Counted from the first letter of the stretch, positions 4,278 to 21,967 are shown. The stretch: DNA of 22,477 nucleotides from a virus (IMGVR_UViG_3300023276_000930:1-22477), one strand, 5' to 3'. Made by a program: numbers and translations. The notes: generated by a model not told the origin, from the sequence alone.

Positions 4278-6650
4278 ATGATGGCGTTATCGGCGATAGA
4301 CCCCGGATTTAATCAAGAAGAACACGCTAAAAGTATCGTGGAAGAGACACGTGAACTCTTCGAGCGATATACTACCGATGCACAGGAATGGCGGGTACAA
4401 TCCCAGGAGAATCGGGAGTTTCGCTATGGACGGCATTGGACTGAAGCACAGTACGATGAGCTGACTTCAATGGGGCATTCGCCCATAACTGTTGATAGAC
4501 TTGGCCCTGCTATCGAAAGTGTCAAGTCGATTATGACTTCCAACCGGCCCGGGTTCCAGTGTATCCCGCAAGAGAATAGCGATGCGAAGACTGCAGAAGC
4601 ATTGTCAAGGATGTTGACTTACTGCTACGATATCAGCGAAGGTGCTGTGCATGTAGCGAAGTTCATTGATGACTTCTTGACTATCGGTATGGGTGTGTTC
4701 TACGCCTACCAGGATCCGCTTGCTGACATGGGTAAGGGTGAAGTGATGTTCCAGGCAGTTGATCCTGATAAGGTGTCTATCAGTTCCAGTTCCCGTAACC
4801 ACAAATGTACCGACTCTGAAAATATCATCCTGAGCTACATGTTCACTAAGAAACAAGCAGCGCAGATGAAACCGCAATATAAGGGCGCTATCGAAGGGGC
4901 TGTAAGTGATCAGGATTTCAACTTACCCAGTACCGGTAATCGTGATGGTCTTAATAAGCTGTTCTTTGAAGTCGATATCGCCAACGCTACCCTCAACGAT
5001 GACGACTACGTTCGTGGCTATATGCGCTACAAGAATGTCCGGGTTATGTATACCCGAGTCTTCGAGAAGTGGTCTGGTGAGGAGCGGATATATCGTGAAG
5101 ATGAATACCAGAAGTATCTCCAGCAGCCAGCGTATATCTACAAAGGCACTCCCTTTACCGACCCGCAAGAGATGGCCAAGATCGATCAGGCAATCAAAGA
5201 TATCATAGAACGCCAGGTTGAATTGGTCGCCAATATCACCGAACAGCACCAACAGGCTATACTCGATATTGCTGCTGAACGTGCTGAGACGATGAAGGGT
5301 CTTGATGAGGCACTCGCTAATGACGCGCTCGAACAGGAACGATATGATGCGGAAGTGAACCGATTGGAAACTGCAGTTCAAGGTAAGCTTGAGCAGGCTG
5401 AAGAGAACTTTGAGTCGTCAGTACAGGCGATTACTAACCCAGAACAGCCGGAATCCGTCACAATTGCCGAGTTAGTGCAGGCTGGCTTCATTGAAGAAGT
5501 ATCCTATCCTGAAGAACGGGTGATGGAATATCAGATCATCGGTGACCAGCTGGTGTCTGAACGTGAAATGACACTCGACGAATACCCGCTTATTATCGCC
5601 ATGAATCATCACCTGGGGACTCCATACCCGATTGGTGATGTTGGCCTAGCGAAGGGTAATCAGGAGTACATCAATAAGTTGCGTAGCCTGATCGTAGCAC
5701 ATACTACATCATCTGTTGGTAGTGCGCTATTGGTTGGCGAGGGTGCTGTAACCGATATCGAAGAGATGGAGCGGAAACTAGCACGGCCTGGTACCAAGAT
5801 TATCGAGATCGACTTTGAGGAAGGTCAGCCGATACCTATGGCGCCTATGCCCCTTGCTAACGAACTGTACAAGACTGAAGCAGATGCTAAGGCTGATATC
5901 GACCATCTACTCGGTGTCTACGAGTTGATGTTAGGTAACCCTTCCGCTGCACCAGATACACATAAGGCAACGCTCAGTATCGACGAGTATGGCCAACGGC
6001 GTATCCGGGCGAAGATGATGAGTATCGAAGATGGTCTGTCCAGACTGGGTAACGTACTTATCAAACTAATGCAGGAGTTGTACCATACACATAAGTTCAT
6101 GCGGATCCTCCAGCCTAACGGCGAGATGTCAGAGTTCTCCGTTAACGAGAACCTCTACGATGACTTTGGTAAGATCATCGGCAGGCTGAACGATATCACT
6201 ATTGGGAAGTACGACTGCAAGGTTAAGTCCATGTCGATGCTGCCTGATAACCGTTACGGTAAGATGGACTGGTACTTGAACCTGTTTGATCGGAAGATCA
6301 TCGATGGTGAGGAAGTCCTACGTAAATCAGGCGACTTTGATATCGATGGTATCCTGGAACGCCAGGGCGAGAAACAGAAGATGCAGCAGGCACTTGGGAA
6401 GCAACAGGAAGAGATAAAGGATCTCAAGGGCGATATGCAAACTAAGGATAGGCAAATTCAATCCTTGACAAACAAGGTCGAAACTGAGAAGTTTAAGGCG
6501 ACATTGAAAATAGAGGCTGAACGAGCGAAGCTTGCAGGAGAACTCTACGAACGACGTTTAGCTGACGCGGCAAGATACAAACAGCGGAATGACGCTGATA
6601 GTAAACGCACACAACGAAGCAAAGGAAAGAAAAATGCCAACAGATCCTAA
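4278..6650 (+). CDS. Portal protein, large podovirus-type (790 aa)
   Basis: Forms the twelve-subunit ring through which DNA enters and leaves the head. Adjacent ATGs at 4278 and 4281 both follow AAGGGGG; the second has slightly better spacing. The N-terminal part (WRVQSQENREFRYGRHW, then GHSPITVDRLGPAIESVKS) and the region near residue 547 (YELMLGNPSAAP, then THKATLSIDEYGQRR) resemble P22-type portals, and the size fits short-tailed phages. Residues about 300-385 are a long charged Glu/Gln-rich coiled-coil insertion. Residues about 695-790 are a second coiled coil ending in a basic tail, consistent with the barrel of P22-type portals. The scaffold gene begins 17 nt before its end. Confidence 0.88.
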   Translation: MMALSAIDPGFNQEEHAKSIVEETRELFERYTTDAQEWRVQSQENREFRYGRHWTEAQYDELTSMGHSPITVDRLGPAIESVKSIMTSNRPGFQCIPQENSDAKTAEALSRMLTYCYDISEGAVHVAKFIDDFLTIGMGVFYAYQDPLADMGKGEVMFQAVDPDKVSISSSSRNHKCTDSENIILSYMFTKKQAAQMKPQYKGAIEGAVSDQDFNLPSTGNRDGLNKLFFEVDIANATLNDDDYVRGYMRYKNVRVMYTRVFEKWSGEERIYREDEYQKYLQQPAYIYKGTPFTDPQEMAKIDQAIKDIIERQVELVANITEQHQQAILDIAAERAETMKGLDEALANDALEQERYDAEVNRLETAVQGKLEQAEENFESSVQAITNPEQPESVTIAELVQAGFIEEVSYPEERVMEYQIIGDQLVSEREMTLDEYPLIIAMNHHLGTPYPIGDVGLAKGNQEYINKLRSLIVAHTTSSVGSALLVGEGAVTDIEEMERKLARPGTKIIEIDFEEGQPIPMAPMPLANELYKTEADAKADIDHLLGVYELMLGNPSAAPDTHKATLSIDEYGQRRIRAKMMSIEDGLSRLGNVLIKLMQELYHTHKFMRILQPNGEMSEFSVNENLYDDFGKIIGRLNDITIGKYDCKVKSMSMLPDNRYGKMDWYLNLFDRKIIDGEEVLRKSGDFDIDGILERQGEKQKMQQALGKQQEEIKDLKGDMQTKDRQIQSLTNKVETEKFKATLKIEAERAKLAGELYERRLADAARYKQRNDADSKRTQRSKGKKNANRS

Positions 6651-10133: not shown

Positions 10134-10781
10134 ATGAAACCTACTGAAATGGTCGAGTTAGTCCAACAGCATCACCCTAACCTTGGTGAGACTGAGATTC
10201 TGAAGATGCTGAACAAGGCTAACCGTGAGATACTACGTATCACCAGGATCATTCGGTCTGATTACGATATCCTTACCAACTATGCTACTTGCTACGACGC
10301 TACTAATGGGTACGTCAGTCTTGGCACCTACCCGGGTGGTGTTGTTGTCGTGAAAGATGTCTTTATCGATGGTGAGCCTATATCGCAACTAACCAATCCT
10401 GCTTATGTAGGTGAGACTGGTTCAGGTGACCAGAACTATTACTGGTGGCGCGATGAAGAGCGTCTCTACATTGTTTACAACGGCGCTACTATAGCCGTTA
10501 TGCCAGATACAGTGACGTCCTGTAGCCTACGTTACGTGAGTAATGCCAGTTCAATCGCCATTGCTGATACTGCTGGCCCCGATTACAACGAACAGTTCCA
10601 CGATGCTTTACCGTACTACGCTATCGCCAGAGGCTACGAATTACCAGAGAACATGAATATCCAGGTTGCGACATACTTCAGAGCACAGTACAGAGAAACC
10701 TTACGGGAAGCTAAGAAGTATTCGAGACGTCGTGGTATGACAGGTGTTGTACAACCACATGCTTTCAATCGGAAAAGTTAG
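10134..10781 (+). CDS. Putative head-to-tail adaptor protein (215 aa)
   Basis: Would sit under the portal ring and connect it to the tail. The start follows AAGAGG. It opens with MKPTEMVELVQQHHPNLGET and then LNKANREILRI, the helical N-terminus typical of phage adaptor proteins of the gp4/gp6 kind. A beta domain follows (about residues 55-145), then FHDALPYYAIARGYELPEN, a helix conserved in these adaptors, and a basic C-terminal helix (REAKKYSRRRG). The length is typical of podovirus adaptors. It is followed by AGGAG and the first of the exported proteins. Confidence 0.65.
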   Translation: MKPTEMVELVQQHHPNLGETEILKMLNKANREILRITRIIRSDYDILTNYATCYDATNGYVSLGTYPGGVVVVKDVFIDGEPISQLTNPAYVGETGSGDQNYYWWRDEERLYIVYNGATIAVMPDTVTSCSLRYVSNASSIAIADTAGPDYNEQFHDALPYYAIARGYELPENMNIQVATYFRAQYRETLREAKKYSRRRGMTGVVQPHAFNRKS

Positions 10782-10790
10782 GAGATCGAT

Positions 10791-11303
10791 ATGAGACGTA
10801 TTATTGTTTTTTTATGTGTGTTAGCCTTGGTTAGCATGGCGACTGCTGGCGATACAGTCAGCTATAAGACTTTTTCGCCATCCACTCACCTAGCAAAACC
10901 TACGATGTCGTATGTAGCCAGTACTGCGGGTGTTGATTCATGTGATACGTTTTGGGGTACTACTGGTGGTTGGTCTGGTATTGCTTCGTCAGGCGATCCT
11001 TACTGGACGTTTATTGTCCACACCACAGAAGCTTACGGCGCAATCGTTGATTACATACGAGTGGCACCACTGTATATTGTTGGTTCTGCTGCAGGTGATA
11101 CCCTTTGCGGTGAATTTAATGTTGAGGATAACGGCACTTCGATTCTCCCCACTACGCATACGTTTGACGGAAGTGAAATAACTTGTGATGTGGCTTTGGG
11201 GGAATTACCTCGCGCTGATGGGGCGAGATTACTTGTGAGTTGGACTGATGCTGCCACAACTAACGGTACGTTCAATCTGCACTTCAAAGGGCCGAAGAAA
11301 TAG
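10791..11303 (+). CDS. Small exported beta-rich protein, unknown (170 aa)
   Basis: AGGAG lies 6 nt before the ATG. The N-terminus is a clear Sec signal peptide: MRR, a hydrophobic core to about residue 16, and a likely signal peptidase I site ATA-GD at 19/20. A Cys inside the core (residue 9) is not in a lipobox context. The mature part is Thr/Ser/Gly-rich, probably all beta, with three Cys (SCDTFWG, TLCGEF and ITCDVAL contexts). I recognise no family; it could be a jelly-roll or carbohydrate-binding type domain. It is the first of a run of exported proteins placed between the adaptor and tail genes, an odd place for exported proteins because virions assemble in the cytoplasm. Confidence 0.7.
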   Translation: MRRIIVFLCVLALVSMATAGDTVSYKTFSPSTHLAKPTMSYVASTAGVDSCDTFWGTTGGWSGIASSGDPYWTFIVHTTEAYGAIVDYIRVAPLYIVGSAAGDTLCGEFNVEDNGTSILPTTHTFDGSEITCDVALGELPRADGARLLVSWTDAATTNGTFNLHFKGPKK

Positions 11304-11318
11304 CCACTGGAGGATTTT

Positions 11319-13070
11319 ATGAGGCATTTAGTTAAACTATTGCTGCCGTTATTGGTAATTTACGGTATAGCATATGGTGGCGCTGTGACTATTTCGGTTT
11401 GTGCAAGTGGTTGTGACGAAACAACAGTTGCCGCTGGTGTGGCTGCTGCTGGTGCTGGCGAAGCAGTATACATCCACAACGGCACTTATAGTGAAACGGC
11501 CGACGTCACCGATGGTGGAACCGATCTTGCGCGGATCTATGGCGAATCTGAGGATGGTGTAATTATCAACCTCCAGAATAATTCTGGTTTATCTGCATCA
11601 TTTACTGGTGATGGATACGAAATTGACCACCTGACTTTTGTAGTGGAAGATGGGTATATCGCTGTCGGTACTGCGTTTGATGGTTTTAATACTTGCACGA
11701 TAACGAGTACTTCTACTGCTGATAACGTTTTTATAGTTCCAACTCCGTCTGTTACTGACACGGTATATTTTGACACCGTGAGTTTCGGGGATGGCACCGC
11801 TACAGATATCCCGATTATCGGTGAGGGTGGGGCTGCGAATACATATACGAGATACACTGATTGCGTTCTTGATAATGTAAAGATACTCCAGGATGACGGA
11901 CGACTCCAGATGTGGAATTGTACAATAGACAACACCAATACGGCGGCCGAACAAGCGTTGATAGATTGGACAGCGGGAGGTGTTGGGTTCGCATATCTTT
12001 ACAACACTACTATCTCTGGTGTCGATGATGACATGGGTTCGTCACCGCACACTTTTGGGTTTCGTAGATTGGACGATAACATAAGCCTTGCTGACACATT
12101 CATGTATTCCAATTTCGATTCATTGGATTTCCCGATAAAGCAATCCGATTCTGACGGCGCACACGCGACAGCCACTAAATCGTATGTCTATGCTTGTTCA
12201 CTAGAGTTCTTTTCGTTGTACGGTATTTTCACTACGACTAATGATGGCGATATTATTGACAGCTACTTCAAGAGTGGTCATGATGAGTTGTACACTATCA
12301 CAATTGGGCATGATGGGCCAAGCTGTAATACGTACAATAAGGGCCAGGGGTGGCATATAAGCGGTTGTACATTTGACGCATGCGACTCACCTATTCGTGT
12401 GTTTGGACAGGAATGTCAGATATATGAGAACAATTTTATAGATTTTACTGCAAACGGAATAGGGATGGAAGGTGCAGATCAGCCGTACATTGTTAACAAT
12501 CGATTTTATTCTGGCAATAAAGCTATTGCACTCCAAATCGAAGATGCCGTTGAGTGTACGGACGGTATGGTGAAAAATAATTGGTTTATCGACAACACCA
12601 AAAATTACTATTTTGATAGTGCGACATCGGAGGGTGGTACGTGGGATTTCGACAACAACATTTATGTCGAACCAAGTAGTGTGACAGTTTTTTGGGAGGA
12701 TAACTCCGTCCAAAAAGATTTTAGCGATTGGTTGACTGACGGCAAAGACGCTCTTAGCGATACAACCACACATTGTTGGCGGTCATTATATGGTGGTGAT
12801 TCTTCGGCTGTGATTGTGCCGCCGTATGGCTACGTCTCTACCGGGCTAACACAAACAGCTGTAAGGCCAAATGTGCCCCATACATTTCCGACATTGACGA
12901 TGGCAGATGATTCTCTGTTAGCACATGTCAATTGGGCGGCAACAGACACGATCACGTGCACTGTTCGAAATGATGGTGCACTTATGGACTATATCGATTA
13001 TAGAGCTAACGATGATGACTTGTACCTTGATGTAACTGGGCATATTTTACCAACTTCAGGATACGAATAG
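11319..13070 (+). CDS. Exported beta-helix protein with shared C-terminal domain (583 aa)
   Basis: GGAGG precedes the ATG by 5 nt. MRHLVK plus a hydrophobic core to about residue 18 is a Sec signal peptide, with cleavage near residues 20-22. Residues about 25-500 are repeats of short strands with N, D and G turns (DCVLDNVKI, MWNCTIDNT, HISGCTFDACDSP, YENNFIDFTANGI, YIVNNRFYSG), the pattern of a right-handed parallel beta-helix of the pectate-lyase/tailspike superfamily. No catalytic motif can be assigned. About a dozen Cys suggest disulfides after export. Residues 507-583 form a C-terminal domain shared with the next gene's product. It may be a polysaccharide-binding or -degrading protein. 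A tailspike is the obvious alternative, but the signal peptide argues against it. Confidence 0.75.
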   Translation: MRHLVKLLLPLLVIYGIAYGGAVTISVCASGCDETTVAAGVAAAGAGEAVYIHNGTYSETADVTDGGTDLARIYGESEDGVIINLQNNSGLSASFTGDGYEIDHLTFVVEDGYIAVGTAFDGFNTCTITSTSTADNVFIVPTPSVTDTVYFDTVSFGDGTATDIPIIGEGGAANTYTRYTDCVLDNVKILQDDGRLQMWNCTIDNTNTAAEQALIDWTAGGVGFAYLYNTTISGVDDDMGSSPHTFGFRRLDDNISLADTFMYSNFDSLDFPIKQSDSDGAHATATKSYVYACSLEFFSLYGIFTTTNDGDIIDSYFKSGHDELYTITIGHDGPSCNTYNKGQGWHISGCTFDACDSPIRVFGQECQIYENNFIDFTANGIGMEGADQPYIVNNRFYSGNKAIALQIEDAVECTDGMVKNNWFIDNTKNYYFDSATSEGGTWDFDNNIYVEPSSVTVFWEDNSVQKDFSDWLTDGKDALSDTTTHCWRSLYGGDSSAVIVPPYGYVSTGLTQTAVRPNVPHTFPTLTMADDSLLAHVNWAATDTITCTVRNDGALMDYIDYRANDDDLYLDVTGHILPTSGYE

Positions 13071-13078
13071 GAGCCAGG

Positions 13079-15055
13079 ATGAAAGCAAAAGCAGTATTTT
13101 TTGGATTACTGATTTATGCGGTGGTGTCATTTGCTGCGATCACTGATGGTCTGACAATCGACAGCAAGTGGGCTTTCGTTGGCGATAGTTGGGTTTCTGG
13201 TGCTTCGTATCCCGCGATATTAGGGTCGGATGATTACGCGGAATGGAGTGAAGGGTTCTATACCCAGGCTGCCGATTGGCCCTGGAAATTGTGTCATAGT
13301 GCGGGTGTGACAAATTATCGTGTATTCGCTACTTCGGGCCAAAGGATACTTGGTACTACTAAAGGGATCGGGCTTGATTATATACCGGACGTATTGGCGT
13401 GGGAACCGGATATTGTGTTCATCAATTCCGGGATTAATGATTGTTATACTGTGAGTGTGGACTTTGCGGAATCTGTTGAAGTCGCTACTGAAGTAGTCGA
13501 TTCGTTGGCATCGTTCGTAGGCCAATTCAATGACATCGGTTGTAGAGTTGTACTTGTTGAAATCCATGGGGTCTCTGCGTTTGCTACTTGGGATGCTGAA
13601 CATGATTCTTGTAGGGTCGCTATAAATACCGGCATTAATGCGATGACAACTGGCGATTTGTTGGCGGTACATTCTGATGCTGCGTGGTTGTATGATTCTA
13701 CTGGGGCCGATTGGGGGGGTACCACCCTTGAGAAGATTGCTATAGGCGCGGACTATGATAATGGTGATGGTTTGCATCTCAACCATTTAGGCGACTATTA
13801 CAAAGGTGATTCTGTTTGGGTAAATACTCTCGGGGCCATCAATTTTGCAAGCCAACGAGCGTTTTATGTTGATGTTGCCACTGGTCATGATTGGACTAAT
13901 GTTGGAACTCAAGGTTCACCATTTCAAACATTACAGGCTGGCATGATGCATGCTGGTGCTGGTGATCATGTGTATCTTACCGCTGGCGAATATGATCGCA
14001 ATACTTCAACTGGGCAAGATGGGTATTTATCAATCGCATTTAAGTTTGTCAGAACCGGCACAGCCGCTAATCCAGTTCGTATTTATGGTAACGGATCTAC
14101 TCTTACAAATACACTTCTCGGTGAAACAAGAAATGGTGCTACTTCTTCATATCGTCCAGACTCGACCCATGTAATTTTTAATGGTTTCACATTTACAGAT
14201 TACACTTATGGGTTAGATGTCGATGACATGCGTGGTTTAGTTCTCGATGAATGCACTTTTATAGGTAGTGGGATATCGCTTGATGGCACAAGCTATGTAG
14301 TTGTTGATGACTGCTATTTGGGGAGAACTAGCGGACATGTTATCAATGGTTTAATAGATGTTGTTGATTGCGACAGTCTCATCGTGGTAGACACAGAACT
14401 ATACAACAGCTCGGCTACATCCAATAAGTCGGTCTATCTTGGCGCTGCTGTTGACGCTACAGATGTGTTCAGGTTTATTGGGATCGATTATACTGCTGAT
14501 CGTGTTGCAGCTCCGTTGTTGACTGTTGCTGCTGCAAATGCACATACTGTAGAGCTTAAAAATTCGGTAGTGGACACATACAATACATTTGCTATGGTTT
14601 GTAATGTTTCGCAAACATTGGTTGCTGACAACAACTTTTTTAACGGCAATGGATTTTTCATTGCCGCCCCTAAATCGTTGGCTCAGTGGCGTACTGCTAC
14701 TGGTGGCGATGAACAGTGGGATTATATAGGTGTTGTTGATAGCGATACTATGAAATATGGTGGTATTGCACATCCAAATTATTACGCTTATACGCAAAGA
14801 CAACATAGTAGTGATTGGTGTAGTATAGGGCTTACACAGTATGCGGCTCCAACTTATCCAGATGATTTTGATGAATTGATACATCTTGATTCTTTGCTTA
14901 TTTATTTGCCGTGGGTTTGGACGGGCGCTGATACTACTGGCAATTTCAAAATACATACTGATAAAAGTTTGTTCGAATACATCGATTACCAGTTTGATTC
15001 TGGTCAGTTATACATAGGCAGAGACCCGCATATTTTACCGGATGGATTCAAATAA
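13079..15055 (+). CDS. Exported SGNH hydrolase fused to a beta-helix (658 aa)
   Basis: A Sec signal peptide (MKAKAV, core to residue 19, VSFA-A cleavage) leads into an SGNH/GDSL esterase domain at residues about 30-250. Its four blocks are present: GDSW with nucleophile S37, a block II glycine at 87 (ATSGQ), NSGIND with N120, and DGLH with D230 and H233. This family removes acetyl or acyl groups from polysaccharides and lipids. Residues about 260-550 begin FYVDVATGHDW and QGSPFQTLQ, the usual cap of pectate-lyase-like beta-helices. Residues 582-658 match the C-terminal domain of the preceding protein. The likely job is deacetylation of a surface or matrix polysaccharide bound by the helix. 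GGAG precedes the start by 4 nt. Confidence 0.85.
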   Translation: MKAKAVFFGLLIYAVVSFAAITDGLTIDSKWAFVGDSWVSGASYPAILGSDDYAEWSEGFYTQAADWPWKLCHSAGVTNYRVFATSGQRILGTTKGIGLDYIPDVLAWEPDIVFINSGINDCYTVSVDFAESVEVATEVVDSLASFVGQFNDIGCRVVLVEIHGVSAFATWDAEHDSCRVAINTGINAMTTGDLLAVHSDAAWLYDSTGADWGGTTLEKIAIGADYDNGDGLHLNHLGDYYKGDSVWVNTLGAINFASQRAFYVDVATGHDWTNVGTQGSPFQTLQAGMMHAGAGDHVYLTAGEYDRNTSTGQDGYLSIAFKFVRTGTAANPVRIYGNGSTLTNTLLGETRNGATSSYRPDSTHVIFNGFTFTDYTYGLDVDDMRGLVLDECTFIGSGISLDGTSYVVVDDCYLGRTSGHVINGLIDVVDCDSLIVVDTELYNSSATSNKSVYLGAAVDATDVFRFIGIDYTADRVAAPLLTVAAANAHTVELKNSVVDTYNTFAMVCNVSQTLVADNNFFNGNGFFIAAPKSLAQWRTATGGDEQWDYIGVVDSDTMKYGGIAHPNYYAYTQRQHSSDWCSIGLTQYAAPTYPDDFDELIHLDSLLIYLPWVWTGADTTGNFKIHTDKSLFEYIDYQFDSGQLYIGRDPHILPDGFK

Positions 15056-15067
15056 CCTGGAGTACAC

Positions 15068-15406
15068 ATGCTCGCACGTACTGGAACAAGACCTGGTGAT
15101 AACGGTGAAAAACACCGTAGGAAGATGACCCGTTCTGCTGTTATTGGTTTCACTATTGCTGCTGTAACATTCGCGTATGCTTCATATGATAGAGTCATGG
15201 ACAAAGGCATGGACGCTGGTGCTGCTAGCGCTGCTTTTGAAGACCATACAAGGCAATTAGAGACACTTACTACTACCTGTGAGCAGATGCCCGTTGCCTA
15301 CGTCCCGCGCCTTGAAGCTGACACACGGTTTGGTGAATTAAGGACGCAAAACGCTGATATGAAGAAGACGCTTGATAATATCTACGAATGGGTGTTAGCA
15401 CAATGA
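15068..15406 (+). CDS. Single-span membrane protein with coiled coil (112 aa), possible holin or spanin-like
   Basis: GGAG lies 5 nt before the ATG. A basic N-terminus (EKHRRKMTR) is followed by one membrane segment at about residues 22-40 (SAVIGFTIAAVTFAYASY), so the rest should face the outside of the inner membrane. The outer part is helical and ends in a likely coiled coil (FGELRTQNADMKKTLDNIYE). This layout resembles inner-membrane spanins (Rz-type) and some holin-like proteins, but I see no family signature. Its stop overlaps the next start in ATGA, coupling it to the C10 peptidase. A membrane anchor for the neighbouring exported enzymes is another possibility. Confidence 0.65.
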   Translation: MLARTGTRPGDNGEKHRRKMTRSAVIGFTIAAVTFAYASYDRVMDKGMDAGAASAAFEDHTRQLETLTTTCEQMPVAYVPRLEADTRFGELRTQNADMKKTLDNIYEWVLAQ

Positions 15407-16374
15407 AGTATCTCCTTGCGTTATTGCTTGCTACCACGATGTCCAATGCTACTACAATGGGCTTACAGGGCTATCAGCCAACCGTAGCGCCACTATTAGA
15501 TGCCGAGTGGGGGCAACTATACCCCTGGAACAGTTATTGCCCTGACGGTGCCCCTACGGGCTGTGTGGCTGTATCAGTTGCACAGGTGATGTACTACTAC
15601 AAAAGCCCCGCCCATGGTTACGGTGAAGACTACAACGATTATATCCATTGGGATCGTATAGATCCTGTAGCGCCTACTGACGGTGCTGCGAAGTTGTTAT
15701 ATGAAGTTGGCCATAGTCTTGGTGCGCACCGTGCGATACTCACCCCTATCAACATAGGCGCTATCCCGGGACGTGGCGGTGCAGGTCACGTCCATTGGAA
15801 CTACTGCGAGTCTTCGAACAACGTGTTCCGTAACGCTTACACTGATTATGACTGGCATAAGCTACTGCAGTTCGAGTTGGAGTCTGGCCATCCGTTGGTA
15901 TACGGTGGCCGTGGTACTGGTGCACATAGCTTTGTAATCGATGGTTATGATGTAGGTACTGGATCCGCTCCCGAGTATCATGTGAACTGGGGTGCTGAAG
16001 GTAGATGGGACGGTTGGTATCGTTTGGATGATCTAACGCCAGGCCCCTTCGACTTTACAGATAACCAGCATATGCTAATCAACTTCTACCCGAGAGAAGT
16101 GTGCTTACGGCTTCCACGTGACTTATCGGTTGATGTGGACTACGAGCGTGCCATGTTCCTCTGGTATCATCTTGGCAATAGTTACACTATCCAGGTAAGC
16201 GAGTATGAAACAATGCACGGTCTGGTAATCAATAAACGTAATCTATACGCCCCTGTATTTGCCACCCCAGAGTTGGAGCATGAGACTACCTACTACTGGC
16301 GTGTGTACATCTATGGTGGTGAGTTTGAAGGATGGAGTAGAATCAACAGTTTCACAACAGGGAGTAAACAGTGA
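15403..16374 (+). CDS. Exported C10 (streptopain-like) cysteine peptidase with Fn3-like tail (323 aa)
   Basis: The start at 15403 overlaps the upstream stop as ATGA. A Sec signal peptide (MKY, core to about residue 13, SNA-T cleavage at 16/17) is followed almost at once by the catalytic domain. PTGCVAVSVAQVMYYY carries the nucleophile C54, GAHSFVIDGY carries H175, and YHVNWGAEGRWDGWYRL has N195-W196, all hallmarks of family C10. The usual long propeptide between signal and catalytic domain is missing. Residues about 235-320 (MFLWYHLGNSYTIQVSEYE to WRVYIYGGEFEGWSRI) look like a fibronectin type III domain. The active site looks intact, so this should be an active secreted protease. Targets are unknown: host surface proteins, matrix proteins or competitors. 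Confidence 0.85.
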   Translation: MKYLLALLLATTMSNATTMGLQGYQPTVAPLLDAEWGQLYPWNSYCPDGAPTGCVAVSVAQVMYYYKSPAHGYGEDYNDYIHWDRIDPVAPTDGAAKLLYEVGHSLGAHRAILTPINIGAIPGRGGAGHVHWNYCESSNNVFRNAYTDYDWHKLLQFELESGHPLVYGGRGTGAHSFVIDGYDVGTGSAPEYHVNWGAEGRWDGWYRLDDLTPGPFDFTDNQHMLINFYPREVCLRLPRDLSVDVDYERAMFLWYHLGNSYTIQVSEYETMHGLVINKRNLYAPVFATPELEHETTYYWRVYIYGGEFEGWSRINSFTTGSKQ

Positions 16375-16589
16375 GCTACAGCATGAGTACAAAGTTTGGT
16401 GTTGGTGATTGGGTATTTGTTGCACCGATTGATACGCCCGGACGTGTGATAGGCGTGATTGTAGACCGCTATGGTACGCAATACTTGGTACGTTACTGGG
16501 AGGGTGGCGCTCCTGTGACCGAAACGATATTTGAAGATGAACTCACAGCTGACAAAAACAAAAAGGGAAAGATTGGGGTACACAAATGA
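16371..16589 (+). CDS. Small SH3-like barrel protein (72 aa)
   Basis: The GTG at 16371 overlaps the peptidase stop as GTGA, and GGGAG precedes it by 6 nt, so this start is preferred over the ATG at 16383. The sequence VGDWVFVAPIDTPGRVIGVI, then YLVRYWEGG and a closing EDEL segment, has the pattern of small phage and bacterial proteins with a KOW/SH3-like five-strand barrel, including the conserved RYW strand. The C-terminus is Lys-rich. No signal peptide is visible, so it should be cytoplasmic, unlike the gene before it. The function is unknown; it may bind a partner protein or nucleic acid. It is coupled to the next gene through an ATGA overlap. Confidence 0.65.
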   Translation: MSYSMSTKFGVGDWVFVAPIDTPGRVIGVIVDRYGTQYLVRYWEGGAPVTETIFEDELTADKNKKGKIGVHK

Positions 16590-17074
16590 GTATTGTACGT
16601 GGTGATATCCTTGGTGTGCGATGTGACGATACAAAGAAAATCCATCGCACGATACGGGATAACACCTATTCCGATGTAGTGCATACCGCAATAGCGATAT
16701 CACCTACCCGCTGTCTTGAGATGCACCTTGGTGGTTTGCGTACCGTGAAGATAACACGGCATAAGAACATTCGTGTGTTCAGACCACCGGTAGAATTGCG
16801 TGGTGCTATCATCAATGGTATTGATACTGTATACGGTGAATATAAGTGGGCACGGTACAACATCTGGCAGGGTATATGCCAGGGTGTCAAGGCTAAGTTT
16901 GGCTTCTGGTTACCATTCAGTAGTAAGGGTGCTAACTGTTCAGAGGTCGCTATCCGGTATGCGGAGGTGATTGGTACACCTGATGTGGGTGATGAGAACT
17001 TATACTTCCCGGGTAAGACCGTAGACCATATCCTGATGAAGGGTTGGCTAGAGCAGGAAGAGGTACACAATTAA
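16586..17074 (+). CDS. Permuted NlpC/P60 (YiiX-like) papain-fold protein (162 aa)
   Basis: A compact papain-like domain with the circularly permuted order of the YiiX/LRAT-type branch: His first (VVHTAIAIS, H33), then Cys (GANCSEVAIRY, C118). A polar residue after the His strand (CLEMHL) could complete the triad. The start is ATGA-overlapped with the preceding gene, with GGGG about 9 nt upstream. Members of this branch act on peptide or lipid amide and ester bonds; several phage members sit near lysis or tail genes. No signal peptide is present, so envelope access would need a holin, or it could be a virion enzyme. It is one of two candidates here for a cell-wall-active enzyme, with the DUF5675 protein downstream. 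Confidence 0.65.
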   Translation: MSIVRGDILGVRCDDTKKIHRTIRDNTYSDVVHTAIAISPTRCLEMHLGGLRTVKITRHKNIRVFRPPVELRGAIINGIDTVYGEYKWARYNIWQGICQGVKAKFGFWLPFSSKGANCSEVAIRYAEVIGTPDVGDENLYFPGKTVDHILMKGWLEQEEVHN

Positions 17075-17252
17075 ACAGGATATCACTGATAGCATCGTGA
17101 AGCTACAGGAGACATACCATGAACTACAAAGTGTAGCCGATCGACTACGGAAAAAGAAGAAACTGTACACAGTACAAAGAATAATGGGGAATGTATGCGA
17201 CACGTTGCAAAAACAGATAGCGTTACTAAAGAGAGTGTCAAAGGAGTGCTGA
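17070..17252 (+). CDS. Possible small coiled-coil protein with AUU start (60 aa)
   Basis: The frame from 17052 to the stop at 17252 encodes a heptad-rich basic helix (VKLQETYHELQSVADRLRKK, then TLQKQIALLKRVSKEC). No ATG is available at the expected place. ATT at 17070 lies exactly 6 nt after GAGG and overlaps the upstream stop, continuing the overlap pattern of the three previous junctions; the alternative GTG at 17097 has no Shine-Dalgarno. It overlaps the N-terminal extension of the next gene by 58 nt in a different frame. The heptads look real and not random, but an AUU start is rare, so this remains a candidate. A spanin-like or regulatory coiled coil would fit the context. Confidence 0.4.
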   Translation: MKQDITDSIVKLQETYHELQSVADRLRKKKKLYTVQRIMGNVCDTLQKQIALLKRVSKEC

Positions 17253-17689
17253 GTGAAGCGCTTGATACTATCGATAAACACTATGCTGAAGGTGTTATCA
17301 GACGGATGGAAGATGACGGTAAGCGTACACTTGGCCTATTCTTTGTTGATGGTATTATGAAAGCTGTAACCTTGGAGCCACCTTGGAAAAACAATGAACG
17401 TTCAGTATCCTGTATCCCTGCTGGTGAATATTTTGCTGATCTTAGAGTCCATGCTAGATTCGGTGAGATCCTGGCATTAACACCTGTAGAGAACCGTGAC
17501 CCTATCTACATTCACGTTGGTAACTGGCTGAAGGACACCAAAGGCTGCATCCTTGTTGGCAAGAGGAAGATAGTAGACGAAAATGATGATGATATGATAT
17601 TAATGAGCCGTATCGCAATGAATGATATCGTAGCTGCGTTAGGTGCGTGGCGTAAGATGCGGCTTACAATAGAGCCAGTTCCAGCATAA
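17195..17689 (+). CDS. DUF5675 protein, L,D-transpeptidase-like (164 aa)
   Basis: Residues about 35-160 match the DUF5675 pattern: TLGLFFVDG, EPPWKNNERSVSCIPAGEY (61-79), then IHVGNWLKDTKGCILVG (106-122). H107, N110 and C118 in the HxxN and GC context recall the L,D-transpeptidase active site, so action on peptidoglycan cross-links is a reasonable inference, not shown. The first 33 residues are an extra helix absent from the core family. The ATG at 17195 has GGGGA 5 nt upstream, but a later start (GTG at 17246 or ATG at 17306) would remove the overlap with the coiled-coil frame and still keep the domain. The gene ends in a hairpin that covers the next gene's ribosome site. Confidence 0.75.
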   Translation: MRHVAKTDSVTKESVKGVLSEALDTIDKHYAEGVIRRMEDDGKRTLGLFFVDGIMKAVTLEPPWKNNERSVSCIPAGEYFADLRVHARFGEILALTPVENRDPIYIHVGNWLKDTKGCILVGKRKIVDENDDDMILMSRIAMNDIVAALGAWRKMRLTIEPVPA

Positions 17690-17698: not shown

Positions 17699-17701
17699 TT
17701 G

Positions 17702-18478
17702 ATGCGACGAGAGTTAGTTTTCGCAGATCCTCATGCACCGTTGCATGATGAGAAGTATTTGAATGTTCTTTTACAAGCGATCGAGATTGTCAAACCGCAC
17801 ACGGTACGATGTGTTGGTGACTTTGGTGAGTGGGATAGTGTAAGCCCGTGGCAGTTTAAGCGAAGGAAGCGACCGCCACTAGAGTACATACTGGACGCAC
17901 TCACCATGGAAGCCGAGGAAGTCAATGCTGTGCTTGATAGAATTGACGAAACCTGCAAGAGTGCAGGTGTCAAGAAGAAGCACATGCACATGGGCAACCA
18001 TGAAATATGGTTAGAGAACCTGCATGAAGAGCATCCGTACCTGGAGTGGGTATTACCGTGGCATATCATGGAACTCAACAAACGGAAGTGGACGTGGACA
18101 CCAAACCACAAACTTGTTAATGTTGAGGGTTTGATAATGTACCATGGAAATGCTTACGGGGGTATCTACCATGGTGCTAATAATTTGCGCAAGTTTGGCA
18201 ATGTCGATATCATGTATGGCCACCTACATGATTACCAGATCCACTCTGCCTCACTGGTAGAGGGCACAGCTAAAGCGTACTGTATTGGTTGCGGTAAGAA
18301 GATGGATCGTGATAGCAATGATTGGGTAGGACCACGTGCAATGAACTGGAGCCATGCCTTTGCTATTGCTTCTTTCTTCCGTGGTATCCATACTGTAGAG
18401 GTGGTTGAGGTGAAGGATGGCAGAGCGACCCTGTGGGGTCACGAATTGAACGGGGGTACCAATGGTACCAAGAAATGA
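17702..18478 (+). CDS. Calcineurin-like metallophosphatase (258 aa)
   Basis: All metal-binding motifs of the calcineurin-like phosphoesterase superfamily are present in order: ADPHAPLHD (D9, H11), VGDFGEWD (D40), MGNHE (N99, H100), MYHGNAYGG (H148) and YGHLHD (H174, H176). A two-metal phosphatase, phosphodiesterase or nuclease active site is therefore expected to work. The substrate cannot be read from sequence. The ATG at 17702, 6 nt after GGAG, is preferred over the in-frame TTG at 17699. Phages often carry such enzymes near tail genes, where roles in nucleic acid or nucleotide processing have been suggested. The C-terminal coding end contains GGTACC-AAT-GGTACC, a small inverted repeat that may pair in the mRNA. 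Confidence 0.88.
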   Translation: MRRELVFADPHAPLHDEKYLNVLLQAIEIVKPHTVRCVGDFGEWDSVSPWQFKRRKRPPLEYILDALTMEAEEVNAVLDRIDETCKSAGVKKKHMHMGNHEIWLENLHEEHPYLEWVLPWHIMELNKRKWTWTPNHKLVNVEGLIMYHGNAYGGIYHGANNLRKFGNVDIMYGHLHDYQIHSASLVEGTAKAYCIGCGKKMDRDSNDWVGPRAMNWSHAFAIASFFRGIHTVEVVEVKDGRATLWGHELNGGTNGTKK

Positions 18479-18531: not shown

Positions 18532-21500
18532 ATGCCCAAGGAAACTCGAGTATTAGCGGACTTCTCTGCAGGGATGATAGGATCTGTTGCTGCATCAGAT
18601 TTGTCAAACAATGCTTCACCGTTCATGGTGGATGTTGATATTAGTAGTAATCTTGGGAAGATCGTTGGGAGAGAGCAGGATACAGAGTTTGGTCTTAATA
18701 TTAGTGGTGTCGAGTTTATTGATCAGTTAGCAGGCGCACCTCTTATGGCTGGTGGTGGTACAATTGGGCAATACTCTGAAGGGCTTTTAGATGTCGGCAC
18801 TGATGAGGATATCACCGACGAACTCACCGATCTCACTGTTCTGAACAATCGCGTATATCTTTCGCAGGGGCGTGGTGCTGGGACGCATACACCGCAATGG
18901 TACGGACGGTTTAATCACAACAACTGGTATCACTGTACTGATGGCCCCGACGCTAATATAGAGAATAGTTGGGGTGCGGTTGATGACGTGGAAGCAGCCA
19001 TCACCTCCCCGAAGAACGCAGCGTTTGGTTGTACTGATGGTACTTACGCTTACTGGGCGGAGAGTGGTGGTTCTATATTGAATCGTTCTGCTGCAACAGG
19101 GGCGGGGAGTTGGACTGAACTACGGGCAGATTTCGTATCGATCAAAGGTCTTGCTCATGACGGAACAAACGTATACGTCATTGACCGTAATACAATCTAC
19201 AAACTTGATTCTGATGGTGACACTGTAGTAGCTGGTACACTTGATTTGAATATGACATGGTTAGATGATGATCAATGGATAAGTGGTCTTACGATTGTCG
19301 GTACTAATCTTGTTGTTGGTTTGGCCTGTACGGATAAACCAATTGGGATAGATGGTGATTTCACACCATTCTTTTGGGTTCCGATAGCCAGTATCGTATC
19401 AGCCTCTTTTTACAACCCCATCGATGAAGAAACTTATCCGGCTGGATTGTTTGAAGTATCAACTTTACCAAATTCAGTTGGCTGGTATTGTGGTTTTGTA
19501 GAAGAAGATGTCTATGAACGACGTGACCCTGATGATATAGACATGTCGCAATACGAGTGGCACAGATTATTTGGTCATGAGTACGGTGGTCGGTTAATAA
19601 AGGTGCATAGCCCCCAGTCCACTACTGTAACAGTACCAGAGGCTGCTGTTTTTAATAATGATTCTGGTACAATCGGGGTGAGTATAACCTACTCTAATGC
19701 CTGTATCCCGGTTGGGGTTGTTTATGATAATGCGATTGCTGCTCCCCCTGAAGATGATCGTTTGTTCCTCCAGCAGTTCACTGGCGGTCATGTTATCCTC
19801 ACGATGAACTTCACAGATTGGGCTGCTAATACAAATAGTGCAAAACGATTTTTATATAAATACGCGGTGCATACTTCTGGCGGTGCTTTGAGTGATTCCG
19901 CTGATGATATTGTTGGTACTGTTATGCCGTATTCTTGGGGTCTTGGTACACCTACAAATAGTCATTCTGTCACATCGGGTCTTCCGCAAGTAGGACATAT
20001 TAAAGAGGGTGGGACGACATCACACCTGTTTTTTCGTGTTCCTGGTAGTGGTAATGTAACTCTTTACGCTTGGGAAACAATAGCATACAGCGCTGTAGAC
20101 TACGACCTCACCCATGGCGTTTCTGCCCCAGAAATGGAATATGACACTGGATGTGAATTAGATGGTTATGAAGCTCTCAAAAGCATAGACGAGTTGCAGC
20201 ATCCAGCGATGATCGTATATGACGGATTGATAGCCGACATAACCCTGGTATCACGAAATGGTGCAGCTTATTTGACAAGTGGTACTTATGCTGGTTCTGC
20301 GTTTAGTGGGTCGTTTTCCGTTGGGTCTTATGGTGACGTGTCAATAGATATTGATGAGATCTCTGGACAAGGTGATTTACTAACAGGGTATGTTTACAAA
20401 TATGCTATTTCGTTCTTGTACGATGGTTATCAGGAGGGGGAACTAACTGAACTGACAAGTATTACAATTGAAGGTGAACATGCGTCTGCCTTAGTGCGAA
20501 TAGCTTTTGAGGAAGGTTTTGATCCTGGCAAACGAGTGACACATGTAAACCTATATCGTAGTGCGCGGTATGGGGAGGGCGAAGATTTTATTGCAAGCCC
20601 CTACAGATTAGTCGATTCGATAGAGGCTATAATTGATAATTTTGTAGAAGTGACATTAGGTGATGGCACCTATTATCAAGGCGGTTTTCATGATACCGGA
20701 AAGTCGGGTGCATCTTATGAGGCATTAGCGCGAGTAGCGGAAACATTATCTGATATTTTAACACCACCACACGATTTCTCGCTTTCGCTACATGGGTACA
20801 GACTGCTTGCGAATGTGGAGCATGACGATATCGAAGATGAGGGTGGTGTGATCCTCCGGAGTGTTCAGGGTAGACCGAGCATTTTTAACCGCGTTGAAGA
20901 TGTTCTGCGTATCAAGGGGCAAATAACAGCGTGGGCTGCATTCAACAATAGAGTATACGCATTTGATACTGCGAACATGTACAGGGTCAATATTGATTCG
21001 ATGTACGTAGAGGAGGAGACGAGTGGTTTGGGTGTAGCATCATCCAAGCAAGTACATGCCACAGAGTTCGGTATGATTATAGCCGGGAAATATAACGTGT
21101 ACCTGCATGATGGTGCGCGGTTACAGCCGATTGGTGATAAAATTGTATCAAACGACACAAGTGAATCACTTGGCGAGACATTTACCTTCAATGACGTAGG
21201 GTATAGGAATAACACAGCTACCCCTATTGCTGGTTTTGATTCATACACGAATAGTTTTTACATTAGTTTTGAAGATAGTACCGCTGGTACATCACAAAAA
21301 ATGTATTACATCTACCATTTAGGGTTGGGTGCTTGGGGTATGCGAACAGCATTAGATAGTGATGTGTCATCTACAACAGGTAACGCCCCGGTATGCATGG
21401 GCAACACGGATGATGGTAGACTTTTGATTGCGACTTCTGGTGAAGTATACAAGGTTGGCGGTAGTGCGCGAGTCCAATATTGGGTGTACCTCACTAAAAA

Positions 21501-21729
21501 TCTGGTACTCAACAGTGGGAGTAAGTGGTGTTTGTATGATGTAGCTAAGGACGGTACAGGCACTATTCTTGTATATTATTGGGATGGCGATAGTTGGGAA
21601 ACACCATTACCAGAGAAACTGAAAGATACATCTATCCAATTGGCGCTTTTGGGTACTACGGTTGGTGCGACACTGGATAGTGCTGCATTGCTTATTCGTA
21701 GATTGGGGGCACATAATGGCACTATCTAA
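18532..21729 (+). CDS. Large tail protein, putative nozzle/tubular tail protein (1065 aa)
   Basis: A very long, beta-rich, mostly acidic protein without signal peptide. The N-terminus (LADFSAGMIGSVAASDLSNN) has the look of phage tail proteins that open with a short arm. Residues about 600-1000 carry repeated blade-like strands (YKYAISFLYDGYQEGELT, NRVYAFDTANMYRVN, EFGMIIAGKYNVYLHDGARL, KMYYIYHLGLGAWGM) of the kind seen in podovirus nozzle or stabilisation proteins (T7 gp12-like, P22 gp10-like), where beta-propeller and tube domains combine. It is longer than those proteins, so extra receptor-facing domains may be present in the first half. It is the largest gene here and precedes fibre-like genes, which supports the tail-tip role. 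The start has AGGA close upstream. Confidence 0.7.
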   Translation: MPKETRVLADFSAGMIGSVAASDLSNNASPFMVDVDISSNLGKIVGREQDTEFGLNISGVEFIDQLAGAPLMAGGGTIGQYSEGLLDVGTDEDITDELTDLTVLNNRVYLSQGRGAGTHTPQWYGRFNHNNWYHCTDGPDANIENSWGAVDDVEAAITSPKNAAFGCTDGTYAYWAESGGSILNRSAATGAGSWTELRADFVSIKGLAHDGTNVYVIDRNTIYKLDSDGDTVVAGTLDLNMTWLDDDQWISGLTIVGTNLVVGLACTDKPIGIDGDFTPFFWVPIASIVSASFYNPIDEETYPAGLFEVSTLPNSVGWYCGFVEEDVYERRDPDDIDMSQYEWHRLFGHEYGGRLIKVHSPQSTTVTVPEAAVFNNDSGTIGVSITYSNACIPVGVVYDNAIAAPPEDDRLFLQQFTGGHVILTMNFTDWAANTNSAKRFLYKYAVHTSGGALSDSADDIVGTVMPYSWGLGTPTNSHSVTSGLPQVGHIKEGGTTSHLFFRVPGSGNVTLYAWETIAYSAVDYDLTHGVSAPEMEYDTGCELDGYEALKSIDELQHPAMIVYDGLIADITLVSRNGAAYLTSGTYAGSAFSGSFSVGSYGDVSIDIDEISGQGDLLTGYVYKYAISFLYDGYQEGELTELTSITIEGEHASALVRIAFEEGFDPGKRVTHVNLYRSARYGEGEDFIASPYRLVDSIEAIIDNFVEVTLGDGTYYQGGFHDTGKSGASYEALARVAETLSDILTPPHDFSLSLHGYRLLANVEHDDIEDEGGVILRSVQGRPSIFNRVEDVLRIKGQITAWAAFNNRVYAFDTANMYRVNIDSMYVEEETSGLGVASSKQVHATEFGMIIAGKYNVYLHDGARLQPIGDKIVSNDTSESLGETFTFNDVGYRNNTATPIAGFDSYTNSFYISFEDSTAGTSQKMYYIYHLGLGAWGMRTALDSDVSSTTGNAPVCMGNTDDGRLLIATSGEVYKVGGSARVQYWVYLTKNLVLNSGSKWCLYDVAKDGTGTILVYYWDGDSWETPLPEKLKDTSIQLALLGTTVGATLDSAALLIRRLGAHNGTI

Positions 21730-21967
21730 GTTGAATGTGCGGAGAGTCGATAGCCCTGAATTGGGGCGCGCCCTTGACGAGATCGTTAACACAATCAACC
21801 AATTAATAGATGAGGTTAATAGTGTCGTCACGGAAAATAGAAGCGGGACAAGGGGTGATGCCGGAGCGATACGTGTTGTGGATAATAAAGCTGATGGACG
21901 AATTTACATCGAGGGCCGTACCAAGAAAGGTTGGTATGGGGCTGAACTTTTGGAAATGGAACAATGA
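21716..21967 (+). CDS. Small tail-associated helical protein (83 aa)
   Basis: Starts inside the end of the large tail gene (14-nt overlap) at an ATG preceded by GGGGG. The N-terminal half is a strong helix with heptads (LGRALDEIVNTINQLIDEVN), probably a trimeric or dimeric coiled coil. The second half is strands with basic turns (GAIRVVDNKADGRIYIEGR, then KKGWYGAELLEMEQ). The pattern is that of small virion proteins that trimerise through a coiled coil and end in a beta domain, such as short tail or head fibre bases. It overlaps the next start in ATGA. It is probably a structural partner of its two neighbours. Confidence 0.65.
   Translation: MALSKLNVRRVDSPELGRALDEIVNTINQLIDEVNSVVTENRSGTRGDAGAIRVVDNKADGRIYIEGRTKKGWYGAELLEMEQ

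Follow-up and report, generated by a model that had tools for sequence, protein, structure and literature searches.

Tailed phages generally put their virion proteins together in the cytoplasm, and phage particle parts made via the export route of the cell are not expected in textbooks. Sequence records of several isolated Cellulophaga phages nevertheless annotate signal-bearing fibers and pectate lyases as virion proteins detected by MS/MS. In phi19:1, gp101-gp104 are four genes in a row, with a pectate lyase and a tail fiber among their products; all encode Sec signal peptides and all carry the MS/MS annotation, while the MS/MS proteins encoded upstream of them have no signal peptides. Phage phi10:1 contains five consecutive signal-peptide genes (gp91-gp95), four of which are annotated in this way (gp95 scores just below the cut-off of our signal-peptide scorer). 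Further signal-bearing, MS/MS-annotated cases are gp25 and gp26 of phi39:1 (the gp25 signal was recognized by eye, the scorer gave no flag) and gp08 of phiSM. Virion status is here the annotation in the sequence records, not the spectra, and co-purification of secreted proteins with virions is possible. A conserved, mobile N-terminal module, which three phages carry on fibers and two others on pectate lyases, includes the signal, and inside this module the signal is 95-100% conserved. In phiST the same lyase domain is present on a tail-fiber-type protein without a signal, and fibers without signals are encoded by phi46:1, phi12:1, phi38:1, P2559Y and B40-8. A literature search found no paper on signal-peptide-bearing virion fibers, which does not disprove that such papers exist.

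Here we analyzed a viral contig of 22.5 kb (an incomplete genome; the whole stretch is referred to as the window) that contains a podovirus-type head module, consisting of the terminase large subunit (phrog_38), the portal (phrog_156), a scaffold-type protein, the major head protein and adaptors, all encoded on the plus strand. Five consecutive genes following this module, X1 to X5 (Table 1), had been proposed to form a block of secreted proteins between the head-tail adaptor and the tail protein. The adaptor side of this placement is correct, since ad2 is located directly 5' of X1, but on the tail side four further genes (starting at 16371, 16586, 17195 and 17699) precede the tail protein gene at 18532. 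The block joins the adaptor gene within the operon at gaps of 8-15 bases, and 4-base overlaps run through X4, X5, Y1 and Y2. No promoter or terminator of its own was detected for the block, promoter-like sites being at chance level when compared to shuffled sequences; together with the short gaps or overlaps this led us to reject a moron (independently transcribed accessory genes). The low GC content and separate origin suggested for the block were not borne out either: GC is 45.2% in the block and 46.1% in the window, 60-nt lines with at most 37% GC make up 8% of the block and 7% of the sequence elsewhere, and codon usage is like that of the rest of the window (RSCU correlation 0.88). Thus, base composition and codon usage give no sign of a separate origin.

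Table 1. Genes from the head-tail adaptor to the tail protein of the window.
Feature	Position	Strand	Basis
ad2, head-tail adaptor-type structural protein, borders the slot on the left	10134..10781	+	phrog_399 structural protein, weak (E 0.0027); homologues in relatives are positioned likewise
X1, 170 aa, Sec signal peptide MRRIIVFLCVLALVSMATAG, without known domain	10791..11303	+	signal score 15.0, site around residue 19
X2, 583 aa, Sec signal peptide, right-handed beta-helix, C-terminal domain in common with X3	11319..13070	+	signal score 11.4; PF13229 E 4e-6; PF05048 E 1e-5
X3, 658 aa, Sec signal peptide, SGNH hydrolase, DUF1565/beta-helix, C-terminal domain in common with X2	13079..15055	+	signal score 11.8; PF13472, PF00657, PF07602
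X4, 112 aa, one transmembrane span followed by a coil-like stretch; probably a lysis-type gene	15068..15406	+	sequence; no signal-peptide flag
X5, 323 aa, Sec signal peptide, C10 cysteine protease lacking a propeptide, Ig/FN3-like tail	15403..16374	+	signal score 9.1; PF01640 E 2e-26
Y1 and Y2, small genes linked to X5 through 4-base overlaps	16371..17074	+	overlaps
DUF5675 protein	17195..17689	+	PF18925 E 5e-27
Metallophosphoesterase (MPP), conserved, borders the slot on the right	17699..18478	+	phrog_221 E 9e-21; 39-44% identity to relatives
Tail protein (1065 aa) and small Z1 gene, both short versions	18532..21967	+	comparison with relatives having a fiber gene near ad2

Signal peptides were identified with a scorer written for this analysis, which evaluates the charge of the n-region, the hydrophobic core and an AXA-type site. 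The scorer flagged X1, X2, X3 and X5 and no other among about 24 called window genes, which are exactly the four proteins (starts 10791, 11319, 13079 and 15403) for which Sec signal peptides had been predicted. X1 to X3 are consecutive and X5 follows one gene later; the chance of finding four flagged genes inside five consecutive ones of 22 is P about 0.01. Six of seven E. coli signal peptides were flagged as a control, compared to a background of 19 of 4800 shuffled N-termini (0.4%), and in 21 related records only 6 of 664 genes were flagged. On inspection, X2 and X3 were seen to have good ribosome-binding sites and to lack an alternative Met early in the sequence; a wrong start codon therefore does not explain their signals. 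The remaining gene of the block (15068) encodes a single-span membrane protein, as predicted, with one hydrophobic span followed by a coil-like stretch, and small span-plus-coil genes are likewise present near MPP in relatives. The cysteine content of the block is 1.75% versus 0.55% in the structural proteins (p 7e-5), X2 having 13 Cys.

The hydrophobic N-termini might not be used as signals at all, but could for instance be membrane-seeking or assembly segments of virion proteins that stay in the cytoplasm. Such a reading agrees with the general site of tailed-phage assembly and can point to the crudeness of the scorer, yet we consider it very improbable, since all four proteins combine a charged n-region, a hydrophobic core and an AXA-type site, a combination not flagged in 99% of the relatives' genes, since the cysteine enrichment fits an oxidizing compartment, and since the signal of the Cellulophaga proteins is so strongly conserved in a module that is itself mobile.

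The predicted contents of the block (beta-helix, SGNH esterase and C10 protease) agree with the Pfam matches. For X3, PF13472 (E 1.6e-7) is 0.4 bit below its cut-off, PF00657 and PF07602 are above theirs, and the SGNH motifs are complete (GDS35, GIND118 and DGLH230, representing the Ser, Asn and Asp-His blocks). The C-terminal parts of X2 and X3 match each other at 6.5 s.d. above shuffles, and this common domain might be as in subunits or alternative spikes. X1 gave no significant family in Pfam, PHROG or NCBIfam; a relationship to a decoration-type protein and one to a small signal-peptide protein of the related record L124 were both rejected, the similarity not being above that of shuffles. 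AF2 models of X1 and X3 were unusable (pLDDT 37 and 33) and were kept out of the fold search. No N-terminal module after the signal is common to X1, X2 and X3, no match to the S74 chaperone (PF13884) was found in these three proteins, and among X1-X5 there is neither an NCBIfam match to the C-terminal sorting domain of type IX secretion (T9SS) nor a lipobox-anchored or barrel protein.

X5 matches Peptidase C10 with 93.6 bits (curated cut-off 26), and alignment to interpain A and streptopain showed that the Cys and His motifs are kept (Cys54 and His175). In contrast to these studied enzymes, X5 has no inhibitory N-terminal propeptide between signal and catalytic domain, the latter aligning from residue 24, directly behind the signal, and it carries an additional C-terminal Ig/FN3-like domain. 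X5 would therefore be active on export. The missing propeptide, the overlaps with X4, Y1 and Y2 and the neighboring DUF5675 gene suggest that X5 is a protease of the lysis stage; Y1 and Y2 have no Pfam or PHROG match. DUF5675 genes are found near lysis genes or tail fibers in phi39:1, Ingeline_1 and in Thiohalocapsa and Rheinheimera phages. X4 had been counted among the secreted set, but a lysis-type cassette fits it better. Signal peptides, intact catalytic motifs and cysteine enrichment point to a probable export of X1-X3 and X5 and to surface polymers as their probable targets, and to this extent the original prediction of a secreted set holds. Its premise, that signal peptides are hard to explain on structural proteins, does not: the idea that a signal peptide excludes a virion protein is contradicted by the MS/MS annotations of signal-bearing Cellulophaga phage proteins.

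To compare the gene order, a terminase search was carried out, which yielded 80 relatives with 45-49% identity. The order TerS-TerL-portal-scaffold-MCP-adaptors, variable slot, Zn-finger-like protein-MPP-tail is conserved in the 21 records that were read. Homologues of X1-X5 were not detectable in these 21 records; scanning 36 related records for PF01640 (C10) and PF13229 (beta-helix) gave no match (for C10 without a positive control), and a limited search of IMG/VR with exact 8-residue patterns gave no relatives of X1, X3 and X5. A second search centered on MPP resulted in 80 loci, 74 of them readable through the slot, and many of these have a gene for 379-1072 aa directly after ad2. The S74 intramolecular chaperone was detected in three of ten slot proteins tested, two of the ten being members of an outer-membrane-like family and not fibers, and PHROG tail-fiber matches were found elsewhere in the slot in the records of other relatives. 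In fully read records with a fiber-sized gene near ad2, the tail protein and Z1 are both short, which is also the case in the window, whereas other records encode a long tail protein. The post-ad2 fiber genes, the S74 and PHROG fiber matches and the short tail protein and Z1 in relatives together indicate that the block, which starts with X1 directly after ad2, is located in the tail-fiber slot of this phage group. Besides the block, no other fiber-sized gene was seen in the slot of the window.

The S74-chaperoned tail fibers of three relatives (L225, L231 and L286) share with the block the slot directly after ad2 and the same head module. They differ in being repetitive and in having a C-terminal chaperone and no signal peptide, whereas X1-X3 have signals, X2 and X3 contain enzymatic beta-helix or SGNH domains, and S74 is lacking. 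Post-ad2 fiber genes of close relatives have no signal peptide. A distant relative, L123 (terminase 36%), contains a signal-peptide fiber-like gene shortly after its ad2 homologue, and in L124, which is closer to L123 but is potentially chimeric, three signal-peptide genes follow one another, one of them starting like a DUF1565 beta-helix. The ad2 protein of L123 used as search query gave no matches.

Several relatives encode a probably exported outer-membrane-like family of 351-353 aa in the interval between ad2 and MPP, which bears on two further explanations. X1-X3 and X5 could be purely secreted proteins that are not part of the virion and that, late in infection, break down or modify the surface of the host or the matrix, aiding release and spread. 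The signal peptides, the hydrolase and protease domains with intact motifs, the high cysteine content and this outer-membrane-like family would all fit; however, X1-X3 are located in the fiber slot, in which no other fiber candidate was seen, and the products of comparable blocks with signals carry virion annotations, so that we regard a purely secreted set as a serious but rather unlikely explanation. A free secreted or surface-modifying role is conceivable, above all for X5 and also for X1-X3. The exported proteins could also mask the receptor or trim it, preventing adsorption of other phages or of released progeny to the infected cell or its debris. The export signals, the outer-membrane-like gene in the same slot of relatives and the fact that SGNH esterases are known to trim surface polysaccharide are in line with such superinfection exclusion. 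It appears improbable nonetheless, given the late position in the structural operon without an own promoter, the lack of a lipobox-anchored or barrel protein among X1-X5, and the cost of using big enzymatic beta-helix proteins as the means.

The window shares with the Cellulophaga blocks (phi19:1 gp101-104, phi10:1 gp91-95, phi39:1 gp25-26 and Ingeline_1 31-34) an architecture in which consecutive signal-bearing fiber-like and pectate-lyase (beta-helix) genes end the structural operon and are followed by membrane or lysis genes. Like the blocks of phi19:1 and phi10:1, the window block consists of consecutive structural-operon genes with Sec signals, with a beta-helix in X2 and SGNH and DUF1565 domains in X3. 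In phi39:1 and Ingeline_1, membrane genes and a DUF5675 homologue come after the block, an arrangement similar to that of the window. An SGNH domain is also present in a Cellulophaga virion tail fiber annotated by MS/MS, gp06 of phi46:1, which unlike X3 has no signal peptide. The match is one of architecture alone, since no sequence homology between the window block and the Cellulophaga proteins is detectable and the phages belong to another lineage; in addition, the window block contains SGNH and C10 protease domains and is located just after the head-tail adaptor. The cysteine enrichment is not common to both, because the Cellulophaga block proteins are mostly not Cys-rich. Shine-Dalgarno sites are used by 86% of the window genes versus 7-17% in the signal-block Cellulophaga phages, so the host of the window phage is probably of another kind than Cellulophaga or flavobacteria. 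A host search with the terminase in bacterial and archaeal genomes found only two binned contigs, labelled Euryarchaeota and Peregrinibacteria, which are probably not informative.

Taking the fiber slot, the signals and the annotated precedents together, we slightly favor the explanation that X1-X3 are Sec-exported receptor-binding or depolymerase spikes which join the particles outside the cytoplasm, and that X4-X5-Y1-Y2 and DUF5675 make up a lysis-type cassette that includes a protease for export. Late in infection, X1-X3 would be exported by Sec, their signals cleaved, and the proteins would fold in the periplasm with disulfides, while heads and tails assemble in the cytoplasm. Spikes and particles would come together upon lysis, the spikes attaching to the tail and surplus copies acting as free surface-degrading enzymes. 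The spikes of phage P22 are known to attach in vitro to particles that are already finished. X4-X5-Y1-Y2, followed by DUF5675, would be a translationally coupled cassette, from which the cysteine protease X5, active at once after export, may help to break the envelope.

On a broader level, we tentatively propose, while considering it less than an even chance, that several bacterial groups are infected by a class of tailed phages which completes its virions outside the cytoplasm. Adhesion and depolymerase preproteins would be exported by Sec, matured in the periplasm and added at or after lysis; the signal would be part of an exchangeable N-terminal module, and the window would represent the same strategy outside flavobacteria-like hosts. 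If exported proteins still reach virions, a second compartment would host part of tailed-phage assembly. This would explain the oxidative folding of spikes and would supply free depolymerases before lysis. It would also change how receptor-binding proteins are recognized in genomes, where a signal peptide is now usually read as secreted and not structural.

Among the records of relatives G001-G036 (for example L082, L085 and L117), the tail protein is 843-1003 aa long where a fibre of 557-882 aa lies near the second head-tail adaptor-type gene (ad2), whereas it reaches 1681-2728 aa where no fibre is found near ad2. A long tail protein and a fibre gene near ad2 thus look mutually exclusive in these records.

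Genes with signal peptides were found in two further relatives. The fibre-like gene of the distant relative L123, a phage contig binned with Peregrinibacteria, lies a short distance after the ad2 homologue. The trio in L124 encodes a protein of 139 aa, a fibre-like protein of 345 aa and a truncated beta-helix start, and adjoins terminase and portal genes on the plus strand; this contig may be a chimera with its junction at ~5450.

Coordinates of the features in the window and its relatives
Feature	Record	Positions	Strand
351-353 aa family member	L225	8087-9148	
351-353 aa family member	L264	2797-3852	
351-353 aa family member	L274	6720-7781	
351-353 aa family member	L300	8089-9144	
351-353 aa family member	L098	17495-18550	
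Repetitive fibre-like protein, clean signal peptide	L123	20611-21378	
Three consecutive Sec-signal-peptide genes	L124	5444-7139	minus
Overlap of scaffold-type gene and portal gene 3' end	window	6589-6650	

In Cellulophaga phages of different families, a single type of signal-bearing N-terminal module (MKxxISIVLFFILSLGLNAQTVEGTVGSDG...) is common to phi10:1 gp94, phi19:1 gp103, Ingeline_1 33, phi13:2 gp087 and Nekkels_1 gp55, joined to differing C-terminal domains.

In the window, the scaffold-type gene overlaps the portal 3' end by 17 bases with a start at 6634 and by 62 bases with a start at 6589.

Related phages also carry, in or near the interval between ad2 and the metallophosphoesterase gene, a family of 351-353 aa proteins, which has no family match in Pfam or PHROG. 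The hydrophobic N-terminus varies, and the body and C-terminus (ending in GVNYRF/GINWRF) are strongly conserved. Judged by sequence, the family resembles an outer-membrane beta-barrel and would represent a phage-encoded outer-membrane protein.
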